Assembly: GCF_028369105.1 (NCBI RefSeq)
Contig: NZ_JAQNDO010000001.1
Coordinates: forward strand, 1,240,001-1,304,000
Source: Polyangium mundeleinium
Lineage (GTDB): Bacteria; Myxococcota_A; Polyangia; Polyangiales; Polyangiaceae
DNA length: 64,000 bases
Direction: 5' to 3'
Below, piece after piece: positions 26,789 to 41,150 of this stretch. The notes under the pieces were generated by a model. That model ran no database searches, was not told where the DNA came from, and worked only from the letters and a program-made list of their open reading frames with translations. A program made the translations under genes and the position numbers. Numbering within the stretch: position 1 is the stretch's first letter; each line of letters opens with the position of its first letter.

Positions 26789-29700
26789 TCAACGCGTCCC
26801 GCCGAGCTTCGAACGCAATCTGTTGTGCGTGGACTTACGCACGCTATGGATTCGCCGTCGCCTCGGGTCAGCGACGCCAACGGAGGAACATGAGCGCCCT
26901 GCAGGACACCGGACGACGACGCCGCTACGTGGTGCGGCGTGCGCGGCACTGCCGGACGGCGCCCCTCGGTGGCGCGTGCGATCGCCTAGATAGGCCAGGT
27001 AGACGCGCAGCAACCTGGCGTCGAGCGGTGGACATGATAACGAGGTATCCGCGAGCGCATGGCGCGTGTTCGTGTCATCGAAGACCGGCATGCCTTCGTA
27101 GAGCTCCCATCGCGTGAGCCCCTCGTGCACCTTTTCCGTCAACATCGGGATGAGCGGAAGCAGCGGGCTGCTCCGAGAGCGCCCGGCCGAATCGACCACG
27201 CATTCGAGCCAAGACGCAAACGGGAGCTTCCGGAGCGCATGTCCGGCGCCGCGCAGGAGTTCGAAGAAGCCCTGCAGATCAGGCGACTCGGCCACCGGCG
27301 GCACGAGATGGTACGTCCGGCCCAGGTTTGCAGGGTTCAGCGAGATGCGCGTGACGGCGGCGCTCACGTAATCGACAGGGACGAAGTCCTTGCGTTGGCG
27401 CGGCAGGTCGGGATAACAGCCCGCATGTATGCAGCCCTTGATCAACCGGCAGACGAAATCGTTCAGGTTGGCGGCGCCCGTCGTCGTGTCGCCCATGATG
27501 AACCCCGGTCGGAAGATGCTCGTGGCGAGCCCACGCGAGCGCGCCGTGGAGACGAGTTGCTCGGCGACCCACTTGCTCTGTGAGTAGCCCATGTCCGTAT
27601 CGAGGTAGGGCGCGCCGTGCGCGAAATTGTCGGTCTCGTACACGACGCTCACGCCCTTGAAATAACCCACATGGCCGACGACACCGATCGATGATAGGTA
27701 ATGCACCGGCTTCTGCCGGATCGCGCACGCCAGCCGGAGGACCTCACACGTCCCCGAGACGTTCGCGCCCCTGAGCGCGTGGTAGGGCTTGACATAATTG
27801 ATCTCGGCGGCGGAATGGTAGATCGTGTCGATCTGCCCGGCCAGGGCGTGGAATTGGGGCGCATCGAGCCCGAGGAGCGGCTGCCTCAGATCGCCAGGAA
27901 TGGGCAGAATGCGTGCCTCGTGCTGCGGCTGCCACAGTCCGTACATCGTGAGCGCCGCGCGAATACGCTCCATGCCCGCCTGCGTATCCTCCGCGCGCAC
28001 GAGGCAGCGGATCTCCGCGCGTGTATGTCGAAGGAGATCGCGCAGGAGGAAGGCGCCGAGAAAACCGGTGGCGCCGGTCAAGAAGATATGCCGGGGAGGG
28101 CCGCTCGGGCGGGTCGCAGTACCTGGGCGGATGCTCGGATCGAGCTCGACGTCGTCGTGGAACGACGCGATCGTGCTCGACGCGACGTCCTTGCAGACGC
28201 CGCGTCGAGCATCGTCGATCTTCTGCGCAAGGTGCGCGAGCGACGGCGCGTTGAAGAGATATCGCGCGGGCAAGTCAACCCGAAAATCCTGGCGGATACG
28301 GACGATGAGCCGCGCGGCAAGGATGGAATCACCTCCGAGGTCGAAGAAGGAGTCCTCCCGGTGGATGCCATCCATGCGGAGGATATCCTTAAAGATTCGT
28401 GCGAGGTGCATCTCGGTGCTCGTGGAAGGAGGCGACGCCTCGTCGAATTCGGCCCGTGCACGCACGTCCCGTGGCGACGGAAGGGCGGCGGCGTCGAGTT
28501 TGCCATTGCACGAGAGGGGGAAAGCGGGTAAAAGTACGGTGTGTGAGGGGAGGAGGTGGCTTGGTAAGCGTGCCTCGAGGTGGGCGCCAATCTGCTTCGT
28601 GTCGACGCTCGCGTCGGCGACGACATAAGCCACGATGCGCTTGTCGCCGGGGACGTCCTCCCGCACGACCACGGCGGCCTCTTTGACGAGGGGACAGGCG
28701 CAGAGCGCCACCTCGATCTCCCCGAGTTCGATGCGAAAGCCGCGGATCTTGACTTGACGATCTTGTCGCCCGAGGAAGTCGATGGTGCCGTCCTGGAGAT
28801 AACGAGCAAAGTCCCCGGTACGGTAGAGCCGCGCCCCGGGCTTGCTCGAAAATGGATCCGCAATGAAACGAGCGGCCGTGAGCTCGGGCTGGCGAAGATA
28901 CCCGATGGCGAGCCCGTCGCCGCCGACATAAAGCTCGCCAGGTACACCCGCGGCAACGGGCGAGAGGTCCGGATCGAGCACGTAGGCGGTGGATTTTGCG
29001 ATGGGCCGACCGATCGGGATGCTCGAGGCGTCATGGGGCTCATCACGGACGAGATGCGTCGTGGAGAATGTCGTATTCTCGGTCGGACCATACCCGTTGA
29101 TCAGTCGTCTCACGCCGCCGGTACGCAGCACGGCACGAGCCCATTTCGGGTCGAGCGTCTCCCCGCCGACGACGAGATATTCGAGGCCCGAGAAGATATC
29201 GGGATCGGCGCTCGCCAGATGATGAAAGATCGAGGTCGTCACGAACATCACGGTGATGCCGTCGCGGTCCTTGGCGGCGCGGAGAGCGGCGGGCGACAAC
29301 AACGTGTCTTGCGGGACGAGGACGAGGCGCGCGCCGTTGAGCAGCGCGCCCCATATCTCGAACGTGGACGCGTCGAAGGACAGGCTCGCAGCGTGCATGA
29401 CGCGGTCGGAGCGACAAAACTCGATGTAATTGGTCTGCACGACGAGCCGGACGATCGCGCGATGGGGCACGACGACGCCCTTCGGGCGGCCCGTTGAGCC
29501 GGACGTGAACATCACGTACGCCGGGGCCTCGGATGTGGGATTTGGGAACGGATCGCCCGATGGAAGGTCGGCATCTCCGTTCGCCTTGTCGTCGTCGGGC
29601 GGGACGACGTCGCCCTGGAATCCGAGCTGACGCGCGTGGTCCGGCTGCGCGACGAGCACCGGTGCCTCGGTCTCGTGGAGCATCCATCGCAGGCGCTCCT

Positions 29701-30001
29701 TGGGGTATGTGGGGTCCATGGGAACATAAGCGCCCCCCGCCTTGAGAACGCCGAGGATGCCCACGAGCATCGGAAGTGACCGGGCCAAGGATATGCCGAC
29801 GAGCACGCCCGGTCCCACCCCGCACCGCCGCAATCTGCGTGCGAGCCGTCCGGCGCTGCGATCGAGCGCGCCATAGGTGAGTGTTCGCCCCTCGTGCACG
29901 GCCACGATCATGTCTGGTGCCGCTCGGGCCTGCGCCTCGAAGAGGGAGTGAACCGTTCCGTCACGAGGCGCATCCGTGCTGATCATCGTTGTTCGCGTCA
30001 C
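26789..30001 (-). CDS. single-module A-T-R NRPS (amino acid reductase type)
   Basis: A 1070-residue enzyme with three domains. The adenylation domain is about 15-510 (A3 FTSGSTGRPKG at 165-175; A5 NGYGPTE; A8 region YRTGDFARY; invariant Lys501 in NGK). The carrier domain is about 530-600 (DLGGDSILAA, phosphopantetheine Ser559). The thioester-reductase domain is about 635-1005 (GATGFLG at 643-649; Tyr806 and Lys810 in YSQSK). It has no condensation domain, so it should activate one amino acid and release it as an aldehyde or alcohol. By alignment to GrsA the specificity residues read D-A-F-F-V-G-G-T-F-K, close to Val/Ile codes. The start is a GTG behind GGGGGAAAGC. The last ~65 residues are Arg/Ser-rich and unlike an R domain. 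Confidence 0.93.
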   Translation of the reverse strand: MTRTTMISTDAPRDGTVHSLFEAQARAAPDMIVAVHEGRTLTYGALDRSAGRLARRLRRCGVGPGVLVGISLARSLPMLVGILGVLKAGGAYVPMDPTYPKERLRWMLHETEAPVLVAQPDHARQLGFQGDVVPPDDDKANGDADLPSGDPFPNPTSEAPAYVMFTSGSTGRPKGVVVPHRAIVRLVVQTNYIEFCRSDRVMHAASLSFDASTFEIWGALLNGARLVLVPQDTLLSPAALRAAKDRDGITVMFVTTSIFHHLASADPDIFSGLEYLVVGGETLDPKWARAVLRTGGVRRLINGYGPTENTTFSTTHLVRDEPHDASSIPIGRPIAKSTAYVLDPDLSPVAAGVPGELYVGGDGLAIGYLRQPELTAARFIADPFSSKPGARLYRTGDFARYLQDGTIDFLGRQDRQVKIRGFRIELGEIEVALCACPLVKEAAVVVREDVPGDKRIVAYVVADASVDTKQIGAHLEARLPSHLLPSHTVLLPAFPLSCNGKLDAAALPSPRDVRARAEFDEASPPSTSTEMHLARIFKDILRMDGIHREDSFFDLGGDSILAARLIVRIRQDFRVDLPARYLFNAPSLAHLAQKIDDARRGVCKDVASSTIASFHDDVELDPSIRPGTATRPSGPPRHIFLTGATGFLGAFLLRDLLRHTRAEIRCLVRAEDTQAGMERIRAALTMYGLWQPQHEARILPIPGDLRQPLLGLDAPQFHALAGQIDTIYHSAAEINYVKPYHALRGANVSGTCEVLRLACAIRQKPVHYLSSIGVVGHVGYFKGVSVVYETDNFAHGAPYLDTDMGYSQSKWVAEQLVSTARSRGLATSIFRPGFIMGDTTTGAANLNDFVCRLIKGCIHAGCYPDLPRQRKDFVPVDYVSAAVTRISLNPANLGRTYHLVPPVAESPDLQGFFELLRGAGHALRKLPFASWLECVVDSAGRSRSSPLLPLIPMLTEKVHEGLTRWELYEGMPVFDDTNTRHALADTSLSCPPLDARLLRVYLAYLGDRTRHRGAPSGSAAHAAPRSGVVVRCPAGRSCSSVGVADPRRRRIHSVRKSTHNRLRSKLGGTR

Positions 30002-37169: not shown

Positions 37170-38264
37170 TTAGTGGTTGTCAACGATCTCGATCAGGCCG
37201 ACGATATGCGTTCGCAACTCGGCGTTGTGTCGAAGTCCATGCGCGAAGGCGCGGCGCACCACCGTCGAAACGACGGTTGCCACTTCCGGTGTCGCGAGTC
37301 TGCTCGTCGTAGGGGACTCATAGGTTGGGTCCCGGAGCCGCACGCAGACGACTGCATGCAAGCCGCTGGCAACGATGTCGCGGAGTTGCTCCAGCGGTCG
37401 CTTGTTCACGCGTGTTTCTTCGACATCCCGCAGCCCACGAGCCAAGCCGTTCAATAGACCTCGGACGTGCGTGCCGCCGTCGGTCGTACGTTGAATGTTG
37501 GCGAAACTGTCAATCGACGTCCAGCGATGGTCTCGCCACTCCATCGCCACCTCGACCGAGATGTCATTCACGACCTCTTCGACGGCGACGACGCCGAAGA
37601 TACGCTTGCCCGGGGAGCGTGTTCTTTCAAGAAATACGCGAATGCCGCGCGTCTCGTGGAAGTGGTGCTTCCGGTGGTCGACGAAGGAGAAGCTCAGCGA
37701 GGGCACGAGGCATGCGAGTTCGCGCAGCCGTGCAGCGATGGCGCCCGCGTTGATCCAGGGGTCCGAAAAGATGGTCGGGTCGGGAAGGAACGTGATGGCC
37801 GTCCCCGTTTGGCTTGTCGGTCCGACCGCTTCGAGATCGCCGCAAGGTATTCCGCGTTCGTAGCGCTGTCGGTAGCACCTGGCGTCCCGAAAGATTTCGA
37901 GGCTGAGCCACGAGGACAAGGCGTTCACTGCAACCAACCCGACGCCATGCAGTCCCACGTGCTCATGTGGCGCGTGTCCGTCGAAGGTTGGCGTTCGGTG
38001 GAGGGACGTGAGGGCCTTCTGAACAAAAGGAACCCCATCGACTTGATGAACGGGAATCCCACGCCCATCGTCCTTGACCGTCACCGAGCCGTCCTCGCCA
38101 ACTTCGACCGACACGGCCCGGCAAATGCCTCGAACGTGCTCATCGAGCGCATTCGCAAGCAGCTCCCATACCATGTGCAACAAGCCGCTACCGTCGCGGA
38201 CGTCACCAATGAACATCCCTGGCCTGCGACGGATGGCATCGATGTCCTCCGGGAAGTCGATCAT
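37170..38264 (-). CDS. orphan GyrB-like ATPase without TOPRIM domain
   Basis: A 364-residue protein that corresponds to only the N-terminal half of GyrB/ParE. The GHKL ATPase comes first: RRRPGMFIGD, ELLANALDE (base Glu and Asn), KDDGRGIPV, and the lid GLHGVGLVAVNALS. The transducer follows: DGGTHVRGLLNGLARGL and LHAVVCVRLRDPTYESPTTSRL. The TOPRIM and tail domains are absent; the stop comes at the usual domain border. The GyrB loop SSQTKDKL aligns with ESPTTSRL, so the ATP-contacting Gln and Lys are missing. It could be a regulator or decoy, or a partner of an unlinked subunit; gyrase activity is unlikely. It converges on the PAS-STAS gene. Confidence 0.88.
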   Translation of the reverse strand: MIDFPEDIDAIRRRPGMFIGDVRDGSGLLHMVWELLANALDEHVRGICRAVSVEVGEDGSVTVKDDGRGIPVHQVDGVPFVQKALTSLHRTPTFDGHAPHEHVGLHGVGLVAVNALSSWLSLEIFRDARCYRQRYERGIPCGDLEAVGPTSQTGTAITFLPDPTIFSDPWINAGAIAARLRELACLVPSLSFSFVDHRKHHFHETRGIRVFLERTRSPGKRIFGVVAVEEVVNDISVEVAMEWRDHRWTSIDSFANIQRTTDGGTHVRGLLNGLARGLRDVEETRVNKRPLEQLRDIVASGLHAVVCVRLRDPTYESPTTSRLATPEVATVVSTVVRRAFAHGLRHNAELRTHIVGLIEIVDNH

Positions 38265-38568
38265 GCGAAGTGCTCAGCGATCTCTGGACGAGGTGGTCCT
38301 TGTCTGCTCCAGGGCCTTCACCACATGGGCGTATCTCACGAACGTTGCCGAGCTACAAGGCCACTCGTCCGGGCGACGTGCTCCCCCTCGTCTTCCGCGA
38401 TCGACTCGTTGACAACTTGTCCTCGCGCCCGCCGCGCAGCGCGACAGACCGTCATACCGCTTCGACCCTGGCGACGTCTCTCGGGCGCCGGTTGCTTGGT
38501 TTTGCCTCTGGTATGGGTCCTGCTTCCGATCGGCCCGCTCCAGGGCAGGCTTCAAAAGAAACGCGACC
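38265..38568. other. divergent promoter region
   Basis: The stretch of about 300 bases lies between the GyrB-like gene and the membrane-protein gene at 38569. I see no credible gene, repeat or long dyad. It must hold both promoters. Short frames here are not supported. Confidence 0.4.
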
Positions 38569-39270
38569 ATGCGACAGCTCCGCATCCTCGTCTTCGTCAC
38601 GACGCTCGTCGTCCCCGCGGTAGCGCATGCTGGAATGCCGTTCGTGCGGCTCTCGGACTTCGCGCGGATGCGGCTCGAGGCGATTTCGTTTTTCGTGCTC
38701 CTCATCTTCCTGCTCACGCTGCTGGTCCAGTGGTTCTGGAACGCCGTGCAGCGGGACATCCCGCGGCTCCCGCGCCTTTCCCACAAGGCGTCGCTCGGCA
38801 TCGTCGGCCTGTGGGCGCTCGGCATGCACCTCGTCCTCAGCATGATTGCCGGCGGCCGTGAGCTCATGACCCCCGGCGCATGGGAGAAGGACGGGGCGAC
38901 GTACAAGCTCAGCCCCGCCCGCGCGGCCCCCGCCGAAGAGGCGCTCGCGTATGCGCGCAAGCAGCAGCTCGAGAGGCTACGAACCGCGTTATGGGGGTAC
39001 GCCCATGCGCACGGCGGCAAATTCCCGCCGCACGATTACGTGGAGGAGATTCCCGAGGCCACGTGGCGCATCGTGGATCCTTCCGTAATGCATTACGTGT
39101 ACGTGTCGGGCCTGCACCCGGAACGCGGGGCCGTGCCCGTCGCGTACGAGCCGGGCATCTACTCCGGCAAGCGCATGGCGCTCCTGAGCAGCGGCGAGAT
39201 CACGGCGCTCGATATCAACGAGATCACGCGCCGCATCGACGCCGCGCCGACGAGCAAAGGGGCACCGTGA
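38569..39270 (+). CDS. membrane protein with pseudopilin-like C-terminal region
   Basis: A 233-residue protein. It begins with a signal-like segment (LRILVFVTTLVVPAVAHA), then two membrane helices (AISFFVLLIFLLTLLVQWFW and LGIVGLWALGMHLVLSMIAG), and a soluble domain of about 130 residues. That domain has the helix EEALAYARKQQLERLRTALW and then YAHAHGGKFPP, which resembles the conserved region of processed major-pilin-like proteins. No peptidase cleavage motif is present. The next gene starts by overlapping its stop (GTGA), so the two are coupled and may form a membrane complex. The function is unknown. Confidence 0.8.
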   Translation: MRQLRILVFVTTLVVPAVAHAGMPFVRLSDFARMRLEAISFFVLLIFLLTLLVQWFWNAVQRDIPRLPRLSHKASLGIVGLWALGMHLVLSMIAGGRELMTPGAWEKDGATYKLSPARAAPAEEALAYARKQQLERLRTALWGYAHAHGGKFPPHDYVEEIPEATWRIVDPSVMHYVYVSGLHPERGAVPVAYEPGIYSGKRMALLSSGEITALDINEITRRIDAAPTSKGAP

Positions 39271-40010
39271 AGGGACGCGTTGCGGCTGTCGGATGCCTGG
39301 CCCTGGCCATGCTCTTTCTTGGGCTCCTGAGTTTGAGCGGGTCGACCATCGTGCTGGAGGCCCCGTGGTTCTTGGCCATGGGATGGCTCCATTTCCTGGT
39401 GCGCGTATTGCCGAAGGTCCACGTCGACGTGGAGGCCGTCCTCGTTGCGCTCCTCGTCGCGGGGGCGCTTTTCGCAGGGCTGCATGCCGTGATCTCGCGT
39501 ATCAATAGCCACCTGCGGAAGGACGAGCCATCGGCGCGGCCGTGGCGCCTCCGCTCGGCGGCCTCGTTCTTCGGGCTGTTTGTCGCCATGCTTCTGTGCA
39601 GCATGGCGTCCATCGGAGCCGCGCATCATCTAGGCTGGATGTTCTCCGGTGGCAAGCTCACGTATTCGAACCAGGATCTCGGATTTCATCCCGAACTCAG
39701 GCTCCTACGCCCCTTGTGCAGTTCCTTTGCGCAGAGCTCCGGGGACATCCACGAGCGCGCGCGTATCTTTGGTCCCGTCCGCGAGACACACCACGTGCTC
39801 GTCGAGGAATCGTCCGACGACGTTCTGATTTTCGAACGTAATCCGACGAATCCCGAAAGGTCCTACCCGATGATGTGCGTGTCCGGCGGCAACCTCCAGC
39901 TCTTGGCGGACTTCGGCCGTGACGAGGCGCTGGAGAGGTTTCGTTCGCCTGGACGATCACCGGGGGATGCCGGCGCCCCGGACGCGTCGGAGGGTGGAGC
40001 TACGCCGTAG
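39267..40010 (+). CDS. polytopic membrane protein of unknown function
   Basis: A 247-residue protein with four likely membrane helices in the first 135 residues (AAVGCLALAMLFLGLLSLSG, LEAPWFLAMGWLHFLVRVL, AVLVALLVAGALFAGLHAVI, ASFFGLFVAMLLCSMASIGA), then a soluble tail of about 110 residues with an acidic end. The start is a GTG that overlaps the previous stop, so it is coupled to the membrane protein at 38569. No family is recognised. Confidence 0.75.
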   Translation: MKGRVAAVGCLALAMLFLGLLSLSGSTIVLEAPWFLAMGWLHFLVRVLPKVHVDVEAVLVALLVAGALFAGLHAVISRINSHLRKDEPSARPWRLRSAASFFGLFVAMLLCSMASIGAAHHLGWMFSGGKLTYSNQDLGFHPELRLLRPLCSSFAQSSGDIHERARIFGPVRETHHVLVEESSDDVLIFERNPTNPERSYPMMCVSGGNLQLLADFGRDEALERFRSPGRSPGDAGAPDASEGGATP

Positions 40011-40193: not shown

Positions 40194-40676
40194 ATGACAG
40201 GACGAAAGCAGAGCGACGAGCACGTCATCGCGCGAAACCGCGCGGCGACGTTTCACTACGAGCTATCGGATCGGTACGAGGCGGGCATCGTGCTGCGCGG
40301 GAGCGAGGTGAAGTCGCTGCGCGAGGGGCGCGTGCACCTGGCCGATGCGTTCGCGGTGGTCGAGCGTGGCGAGGTATGGTTGAGGAACATGCACATCGCA
40401 TCCTTCTTTCACGCGCGCGCGTTTCCGCACGACGAGCGCGGCGCGCGCAAGCTGCTCCTCCACGCGCGCGAGATTCGGCAGATCGAACGCGTCATTCTGC
40501 GCGAGGGCTACACGCTCGTGCCGCTCGACCTGCATTTCCGGAATGGCCACGTAAAAGTGGCCCTCGGCGTCGGTCGCGGGAAGAAGGTCCACGACAAACG
40601 CGCCGCCATCGCCGAGCGCACGGAGGAACGCGAAGCGCTGCAAGAACTGCGTGCTCGTCAGCGTCGCGGCGGGTAA
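40194..40676 (+). CDS. smpB: SsrA-binding protein SmpB
   Basis: A 160-residue RNA-binding protein of trans-translation. Conserved family features are present: ARNRAATFHYELSDRYEAGIVLRGSEVKSLREG near the N-terminus (given in two parts by its key blocks ARNRAA and GSEVKSLREG), the LHAREI loop, LVPLDLHFRNGHVKVALGVGRGKKVHDKR near the end (key blocks LVPL, VKVALG, GKKVHDKR), and a basic C-terminal tail. It delivers tmRNA to stalled ribosomes. The length is normal. No ssrA gene was recognised nearby. It is the only clear housekeeping gene in the window. Confidence 0.97.
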   Translation: MTGRKQSDEHVIARNRAATFHYELSDRYEAGIVLRGSEVKSLREGRVHLADAFAVVERGEVWLRNMHIASFFHARAFPHDERGARKLLLHAREIRQIERVILREGYTLVPLDLHFRNGHVKVALGVGRGKKVHDKRAAIAERTEEREALQELRARQRRGG

Positions 40677-40697: not shown

Positions 40698-41150
40698 TTA
40701 TGGCCGTCGTTCCGTCTGCAGGATCGTGCGGACGTCCATGAGAATGCGCCCGAGCATGTTCTTGCCCGAGCCGTCCCCGCCGTCGCCCCAGAAGGAATCG
40801 GTGTCGGTGTGCTCGATGAGGGTAGCGTCTGCCGTCGCCAGGAGGAGCTTGGTCAGGTCGTCATGTTGCCGGAACTTGGCTTCGACCGCCCGGCGCATCA
40901 CCGAAACCTTCACCGATTCCCAGTCAGCGCGGAGTTTTTGTCGCCGATCGCGCCCAAGCCGTGCCGCTAGCAGCGGCGTGGACGCGCAGCGAACGCGCTC
41001 CTGCACCTTTGGATCGAGAAACTTCTGAGCCTGAAAATAGTGCTCCGAGGTCGGCCAGCGTTTCTTGCCCAGGACGATGGGATACGGCGCGAAATTGGAA
41101 AATTCGCCATAGGCGTCTTGGACGCTGTAAAAGCGAATGTGAGGCGTCAT
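40698..41150 (-). CDS. NADAR family protein (YbiA-like)
   Basis: A 150-residue NADAR-domain protein. The family motifs are GEFSNFAPYPI, WPTSEHYFQAQKF and NMLGRILMDVR, at the usual spacing. NADAR proteins cleave N-glycosidic bonds: YbiA-type members act on toxic riboflavin-pathway intermediates, and others remove ADP-ribose adducts from guanine in DNA. Which applies here cannot be told from the sequence. No DarT-like ADP-ribosyltransferase is adjacent, so a toxin-antitoxin role is not indicated. It converges on smpB. Confidence 0.9.
   Translation of the reverse strand: MTPHIRFYSVQDAYGEFSNFAPYPIVLGKKRWPTSEHYFQAQKFLDPKVQERVRCASTPLLAARLGRDRRQKLRADWESVKVSVMRRAVEAKFRQHDDLTKLLLATADATLIEHTDTDSFWGDGGDGSGKNMLGRILMDVRTILQTERRP

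Follow-up and report, generated by a model that had tools for sequence, protein, structure and literature searches.

TOPRIM-less GyrB-like proteins with a histidine-containing ATP lid in Polyangium mundeleinium and other Myxococcota

Results

A GyrB-like gene that ends where TOPRIM would begin

The 64,000-nucleotide stretch analyzed here (the window) covers positions 1,240,001-1,304,000 in the 13.25-Mb, two-contig genome of Polyangium mundeleinium. It contains an open frame of 367 codons whose ATG-started product, P0001 (364 aa), consists of a GHKL ATPase domain and a transducer domain (Table 1). A Pfam scan of P0001 found no TOPRIM and no other domain over the cut-off, and only the first ~370-380 positions of the NCBIfam GyrB models aligned to it, which bears out a first-pass annotation of this DNA as the ATPase and transducer half of GyrB. 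Both TOPRIM and the C-terminal domain required of GyrB are therefore absent, and P0001 scored far below the GyrB cut-offs of TIGR01059 (281.8 vs. 882.4 bits) and NF011501 (291.3 vs. 796 bits). NCBIfam ParE models gave 186-242 bits, vs. 276-291 bits for the GyrB models; E-values were 0.14 with the Topo VI-B model TIGR01052 and 0.025 with a MutL model.

Table 1. Positions of P0001 and its features in the window.
Feature	Position	Strand	Basis or remark
P0001, GyrB-like ATPase + transducer, TOPRIM-less, arm-less	37170..38264	-	364-aa ORF, Pfam
In-frame TGA	38274..38276	-	three codons 5′ of the P0001 ATG
GHKL ATPase domain (HATPase_c, residues 24-159)	37788..38195	-	Pfam PF02518, 42.4 bits
Transducer domain (DNA_gyraseB, residues 209-356)	37197..37640	-	Pfam PF00204, 86.4 bits
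Glu34, equivalent of GyrB Glu42	38163..38165	-	E in 20/21 members
DDGRG motif, residues 65-69, GyrB Asp73-Gly77	38058..38072	-	residue table, PDB alignment
Thr93 at the GyrB lid Lys103 site	37986..37988	-	Thr/Ser in 21/21 members, Lys in 56/56 references
HxPHxH lid motif, H97-A-P-H-E-H102	37959..37976	-	20/21 members, 0/62 controls
Pro318-Thr319-Thr320 replacing GyrB Gln335-Thr336-Lys337	37305..37313	-	sequence, residue table

The in-frame TGA just upstream of the ATG rules out an N-terminal arm gained by extension. Downstream, the P0001 stop codon is followed after 27 bp by the end of a convergent PAS-STAS gene, and these two boundaries together leave no TOPRIM half hidden at the locus. Another genome of the genus (G158) carries the gene intact, at 90% identity and with an unchanged SPTTSR loop at the site of the gyrase QTK triplet, followed by the same PAS-STAS DNA, and this intact equivalent excludes an assembly break. 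When the window was searched by tblastn, host GyrB and ParE matched with their ATPase half only (E 2e-63 and 7e-40, respectively; ~39% identity to host GyrB over that half), and nothing besides P0001 was found under E 0.1 with host GyrB, ParE or ParC, the last serving as stand-in for a GyrA query. A frameshift or assembly error concealing a TOPRIM half was rejected on the basis of the upstream TGA, the G158 copy and this search, which also returned no QTK-bearing paralog and agreed with the earlier remark that no parC-like gene is nearby. The host's own gyrB (879-aa product, at 12.92 Mb of the contig) and parE (644-aa product, at 7.96 Mb, adjoining parC) are both normal and lie outside the window.

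The third-position GC content of the P0001 gene (0.73) is the second lowest among 50 window ORFs of at least 150 aa from a crude gene caller (median, 0.82). Some 1.5 kb at window positions 38360-39906, including an ORF at 38569-39270 that has no Pfam match, is missing at the equivalent place in G158; similar DNA (82%) occurs elsewhere in the genome of G160. A NADAR-domain gene (40698-41150, minus strand) adjoins smpB (40194-40676), and a long minus-strand ORF at 27001-30001, ~7 kb from the P0001 gene, resembles a non-ribosomal peptide synthetase by eye; its extent is what lies inside a scan bounded at 27001.

Structure prediction, which had been suggested as a check, gave a GyrB43-fold model (AlphaFold2 with an input alignment of 51 GyrB relatives; pLDDT 88.3, pTM 0.84), in which the lid residues 96-105 were modeled at pLDDT below 50. 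Among the top ten PDB matches to this model, the best were GyrB and ParE chains (TM 0.86-0.91 by model length).

TOPRIM-less relatives in Myxococcota

Clear TOPRIM-less orthologs in G158, G056, G160, G039 (two copies) and G111 came to light when 60 genomes from the taxonomic family were searched at the protein level and 183 from the order with a profile; later searches added more TOPRIM-less relatives. Within the genus, four of the six genomes listed carry the gene; G014 and G159 do not. A profile built from the lid alone (41 positions) was then run over 377 Myxococcota genomes and matched 27 at E ≤0.001. Eighteen of these scored at least 47 bits, followed by the diverged G345 at 27.3 bits and the rest at no more than 24.6 bits; the eight genomes at 21.5-24.6 bits were judged by their score row, and four of them had frames of GyrB length (840-861 aa). 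The 18 clear carriers all have genomes of at least 6.1 Mb and are scattered over ten family groups (f1, f3, f4, f5, f12, f15, f16, f28, f32 and f38), for which reason we call the gene sporadic. Copies were intact in 16 of the 18, the exceptions being a frameshifted copy in G075 (L183) and a fragment on a 3.1-kb contig in G064 (L219). A scrambled copy was found in G025 (L047), and the second family copy of G039 (L045) is split by a frameshift.

The set used for residue comparisons comprised 21 members: the window protein, 14 found by whole-protein similarity and six found by the lid profile, with the broken copies L045, L047, L183 and L219 left out and start codons outside the window chosen by eye. 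HxPHxH was present in 13 of the 14 similarity-found members, the exception being G345, which has DxAHAH in its place. Members found by the lid profile carry the motif by construction, so that the test for those six (G464, G484, G193, G488, G181 and G438; all intact) is the absence of TOPRIM. None of the six had a TOPRIM domain in Pfam; they end 24-45 residues past the Lys337 site, with Gln335 changed to Pro or Arg and Lys337 to Arg. As all six fit, the lid motif predicts both the domain loss and the loop change. TOPRIM loss also arises without the histidine lid, as seen in six GyrB-like proteins that lack HxPHxH and were used as controls (myxobacterial L046, L049, L050 and L186, and two from Streptomyces). 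Taken together, the sequence comparisons place P0001 in a TOPRIM-less, GyrB-derived set in Myxococcota with its own lid motif; it is not the orphan that it had been called, given the 21 sequences compared and the 18 of 377 genomes with clear copies.

A DNA-level scan for HxPHxH was dropped when 371 of the 377 genomes matched and a reversed control behaved similarly, and a scan of genome contigs with another query (A2) was dominated by GyrB. No family member was found in 249 genomes from the phylum that includes Arenimonas (Pseudomonadota) or in 199 from that of the Acidobacteria MAG G515, and 43 further genomes gave a single weak match (26.7 bits, in a 653-aa frame). The other-phylum samples were small, and no positive control accompanied them, so a restriction to Myxococcota is only provisional. 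Among the open-licence PubMed Central papers searched, none had a title or abstract dealing with this family.

Several individual loci are of note. The 16-Mb genome G039 has three TOPRIM-less GyrB-like loci: L044, an intact member whose 5′ end overlaps the 3′ end of a hybrid histidine kinase gene; L045; and L046, a diverged 383-aa protein in which Glu42 is lost and HxPHxH is absent. In G438, the family ORF (L222, 3552-5633) is continuous in frame with a ketopantoate reductase on its upstream side (Pfam ApbA, 100.2 bits; ApbA_C, 36.8 bits), possibly a natural fusion.

Residue changes in the ATP lid, transducer loop and N-terminal arm

Residues were tabulated for the 21 members, 56 GyrB/ParE references and six other TOPRIM-less proteins, with E. 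coli numbering transferred through the alignment of P0001 to PDB chains. Equivalents of Glu42, Asn46, Asp73 and Thr165 were each kept in 20 of the 21 members and that of Gly77 in all of them. P0001 itself keeps the Glu42, Asn46, Asp73 and Gly77 equivalents; to that extent its GHKL motifs are intact, as first described, but the lid residues Lys103 and Tyr109 and the N-terminal arm are gone.

Lys103, Tyr109, Gln335 and Lys337 were invariant in the 56 references and are replaced in P0001 by Thr, Pro, Pro and Thr, respectively. Among the members, the Lys103 site was Thr (19/21) or Ser (2/21), the Tyr109 site Pro (20/21) and the Lys110 site His (21/21). His97, Pro99, His100 and His102 were invariant in a 13-sequence alignment of TOPRIM-less relatives, in a stretch that corresponds to the gyrase ATP lid, and the longer pattern [T/S]xDxHxPHxH was found in 18 of the 21 members. 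At the Gln335 site, 19 members had Pro and two had Arg. The Lys337 site was Arg in 14 members, Lys in five and Thr in two, namely P0001 and G158, which keep the Pro-Thr of the family loop [P/R]T[R/K] and have Thr for the Arg/Lys. The SPTTSR reading of this loop was thus correct for P0001 and is repeated in G158, and the QTK lysine is indeed missing from P0001, but its absence is not a family trait. Judged from these alignments, the Thr is a local loss in the window lineage, whereas the family traits are the change of Gln335 to Pro or Arg together with the altered ATP lid. Neither the HxPHxH lid nor the Gln335 change figured in the first-pass annotation.

P0001 lacks the pattern of the N-terminal dimerization arm, which 55 of the 56 references have. 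It is one of 12 members without the arm; a Tyr-bearing arm was seen in six (G175, G215, G464, G484, G193 and G488) and a partial arm in two (G181 and G117), and the remaining member, G345, is missing its start. Given the six Tyr-bearing arms and the basic residue at the Lys337 site in 19 of the 21 members, other members of the family are possibly true dimeric ATPases.

Phylogeny and selection

A careful tree was built from 57 rows after removal of the lid columns, omission of F_G345, T_G036, T_G039b and T_G040, and thinning of the references. In this tree, a branch with support 84/98 (not starred) set 19 of 20 members apart from the GyrB and ParE rows and from the remaining TOPRIM-less proteins; G193 was placed with the motif-less G314, both on long branches. 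A single clade of all 20 members was not rejected (AU p 0.324), though it was not the best tree. Within the family, the window protein grouped with G158, then with G056 and G160, and then with G039, all with starred supports, and the same order was repeated in a quick tree of 83 rows. P0001 is not a recent copy of the host gyrB, as its grouping lies away from host GyrB. Ratios of dN/dS from four pairs ranged from 0.18 to 0.31 (window-G158, 0.26; G056-G160, 0.31; window vs. G056 and G160, 0.18 and 0.19, respectively).

Neighboring genes and mobile elements

Neighborhoods were compared at 23 loci with a crude gene caller. Beyond two syntenic pairs, the only neighbors that recurred among the 23 were kinase-like genes, of which the histidine kinase of L044 alone was checked with Pfam, and two short, weak pairs (67 and 70 aa). 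The PAS-STAS gene is present in G056, G160 and G159 and does not adjoin the family gene in any of them; in G056 the two are 36 kb apart on the same contig. Twenty neighbors from twelve other loci belonged to unrelated Pfam families (including PGA_cap [capsule], CBM3, DUF2199, ankyrin, AraC, a molybdopterin enzyme, an ABC transporter, adenosine deaminase and FHIPEP) or, in five cases, had no match. As no specific partner recurs over the compared loci, an operon or defense island was rejected.

PADLOC matched none of its families to P0001, P0003 and P0007, two of which are family members; this result and the lack of a specific recurring partner speak against the defense system that had been raised as one possibility. 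Among viral contigs, 29 pattern stretches included no relative. The lid peptide found no family member in plasmids and phages in a search that ran without a positive control, and all matches of whole P0001 to 113 phage and 159 plasmid records were below 60% identity. A role as mobile-element cargo was rejected on these grounds.

Discussion

Comparison with known GHKL proteins

P0001 resembles GyrB43 (PDB 1ei1 and 4prx) in its fold (TM 0.86-0.87 by model length, 36% identity) and in its GHKL core residues. It differs in the missing arm, in the Thr and Pro that replace lid Lys103 and Tyr109 within T-x-D-x-H-x-P-H-x-H, in the change of Gln335 to Pro and of Lys337 to Thr, and in its natural end where TOPRIM would begin. 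ParE shares the same two domains at lower similarity than GyrB and differs alike in lid, arm and TOPRIM. The one PDB chain that bears the name of a truncated GyrB ('DNA gyrase, B subunit, truncated', 3cwv; a solved structure of 369 aa), presumably a Myxococcus xanthus protein from structural genomics, matched P0001 residues 8-345 (E 3.6e-27) and the family profile (E 1.1e-50). Its best stretch ran across the lid with P0001 and started past the lid with the family profile, L182 and P0006. The open-licence PubMed Central literature that was searched did not name 3CWV.

A GHKL ATPase joined to a transducer-like domain, with no TOPRIM, also occurs in Topo VI-B and MutL. MORC2 is described as having the same arrangement (PMC5811534). 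Unlike MORC, Topo VI-B and MutL proteins, P0001 has a GyrB-type sequence and no extra domains. Arabidopsis GYRB3 resembles GyrB, is by report no subunit of gyrase and, like P0001, is altered at the Lys337 site; according to the same report it differs from P0001 in having lost the GHKL part of the ATPase domain, so that a transducer and a SANT domain are all that it has (PMC2845627).

An 'ATP-binding protein' of Streptomyces plasmids (e.g., WP_331725415.1) likewise consists of ATPase and transducer only (392 and 396 aa in the two examples read). Unlike P0001, these proteins keep the arm, lack HxPHxH, have Tyr at the Mg-binding Asn46 site and fall on the GyrB/ParE side of the tree. Their genes lie on linear plasmids (L056, 3295-4470 of NZ_CP108189.1; L057, 5920-7107 of NZ_CP108712.1); such a protein is encoded in five plasmid records (≥78% identity), of which three have it within ~4.4 kb of a plasmid end, and one copy adjoins a helicase-domain gene.

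A predicted nucleotide switch

In work on E. coli GyrB, Lys337 is described as contacting the gamma phosphate and Asn46 as binding Mg, Gln335 as a two-state switch needed for DNA control of hydrolysis, and GyrB43 as hydrolyzing ATP only as a dimer, with the N-terminal arm of the partner bracing the nucleotide (PMC4159350). The Lys337Gln substitution in GyrB is reported to leave ATPase activity undetectable (PMC2845627). For MORC2, the lid is reported to form a large share of the ATP-dependent dimer interface, with lid Lys89 touching the beta phosphate (PMC5811534).

Weighing the sequence, the predicted model and these analogies, we suggest that P0001 may be a stand-alone GHKL nucleotide switch and not a topoisomerase subunit, in a lineage that probably binds ATP and hydrolyzes it poorly; we would give this reading an even chance. 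Proteins of the P0001 type should still bind ATP-Mg, because the Glu42, Asn46, Asp73, Gly77 and Thr165 equivalents are kept. The histidine lid would close over ATP differently from that of gyrase, and the transducer would relay the state of the nucleotide while lacking the two-state switch (Gln335) by which hydrolysis is coupled to DNA. In the window lineage, the nucleotide would probably be held with little or no hydrolysis, because Thr replaces the catalytic Lys/Arg and the arm is absent. P0001 would then work as a monomer or a weakly associated dimer, with DNA or a partner protein as its binding target. That P0001 is itself a topoisomerase appears very unlikely from its sequence, and there is good support for the earlier view that it could not serve as a gyrase subunit by itself.

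The lid could in addition be a candidate metal site, formed by Asp95, His97, His100 and His102, at which metal or pH would gate the trapping of the nucleotide and the transducer would report to a partner. The suggestion comes from spacing alone, as four possible ligands fall within eight residues; we consider it attractive and plausible, though rather unlikely.

Alternative explanations

P0001 might instead be a regulator or decoy of the host's gyrase or topoisomerase IV that reduces their activity, either by pairing with GyrB or ParE at the ATP gate or by competing for DNA or GyrA. Its GyrB fold, its ~39% identity to host GyrB over the ATPase half and the co-occurrence of GyrB and ParE in the same genome are in keeping with such a role. 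However, the arm that is swapped at the GyrB gate is missing from more than half of the members (12/21) and present in nearly all references (55/56), the lid residues are changed, and a gene found in only 18 of 377 genomes, and lacking from two of the six listed for the genus, is sporadic; we regard a decoy as unlikely. We attach a similarly low probability to an ATP clamp on DNA of the MORC or MutL kind, possibly acting in conflict with mobile DNA. MORC proteins are described as GHKL plus a transducer-like domain (PMC5811534), and the frameshift-split copy L045 adjoins an ORF with a sub-threshold match to wHTH-HSP90_Na-assoc (21.3 bits; cut-off, 23). Against a clamp stand the end of P0001 at its transducer, with neither a CW finger nor a coiled-coil model among its Pfam matches; the absence of any PADLOC match for three proteins, including two family members; the lack of a specific recurring neighbor; the missing arm; and searches of plasmids, phages and viral contigs that yielded no close relative. 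Both of these explanations are weakened for P0001 by its lack of the arm with which GyrB braces its dimer.

Self-protection from GyrB-directed antibiotics of the aminocoumarin type, with P0001 as a GyrB43-like, drug-binding sponge, has in our judgment only a very slim chance of being correct. It would suit the occurrence of TOPRIM-less GyrB-like proteins in large-genome soil bacteria (myxobacteria, and Streptomyces plasmids) and the peptide synthetase-like ORF in the window. P0001 also keeps Arg at the site of GyrB Arg136, which we take to be an aminocoumarin contact, as do 12 members in all, but the other nine do not; the lid side of the drug pocket is altered, and no biosynthetic-cluster marker was among the 20 neighbors scanned with Pfam at twelve other loci (5/20 unmatched). 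Decay of a duplicated gyrB would account for the broken copies (L045 of G039 and L183 of G075, both split; the scrambled L047 of G025; and the L219 fragment of G064) and for the loss of the loop Lys/Arg in the window's lineage. The dN/dS ratios of 0.18-0.31, the retention of identical new residues in members from nine family groups and the separation of P0001 from host GyrB in the tree all argue otherwise, so that the idea of a decaying relic is already disfavored and strikes us as quite improbable.

Implications

On the whole, the interpretation in the first-pass annotation is partly supported. Other TOPRIM-less homologs do exist in Myxococcota, their neighbors do not specifically recur, and no frameshift or assembly break was found, given the upstream TGA, the convergent gene and the intact G158 copy. 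New here is a coherent group of proteins, derived from GyrB, that has its own lid motif. The finding also calls for caution with automatic annotation: in the large genomes of soil bacteria, a protein labeled 'DNA gyrase subunit B' or 'ATP-binding protein' may have a different identity. Should the lid prove to be a metal site, the family would represent a new class of GyrB-derived GHKL switch, no longer tied to DNA cleavage, in which a topoisomerase ATPase has been turned to the sensing of metal or redox state; it has here been seen in Myxococcota only. The ATPase modules of type II topoisomerases are highly conserved, as the four invariant sites in the 56 references illustrate. A family that keeps the fold and the Mg-ATP core, yet swaps Lys103, Tyr109 and Gln335 and gains a histidine motif, is a natural experiment, and such proteins can show how the lids, arms and transducers of GHKL ATPases set their function.
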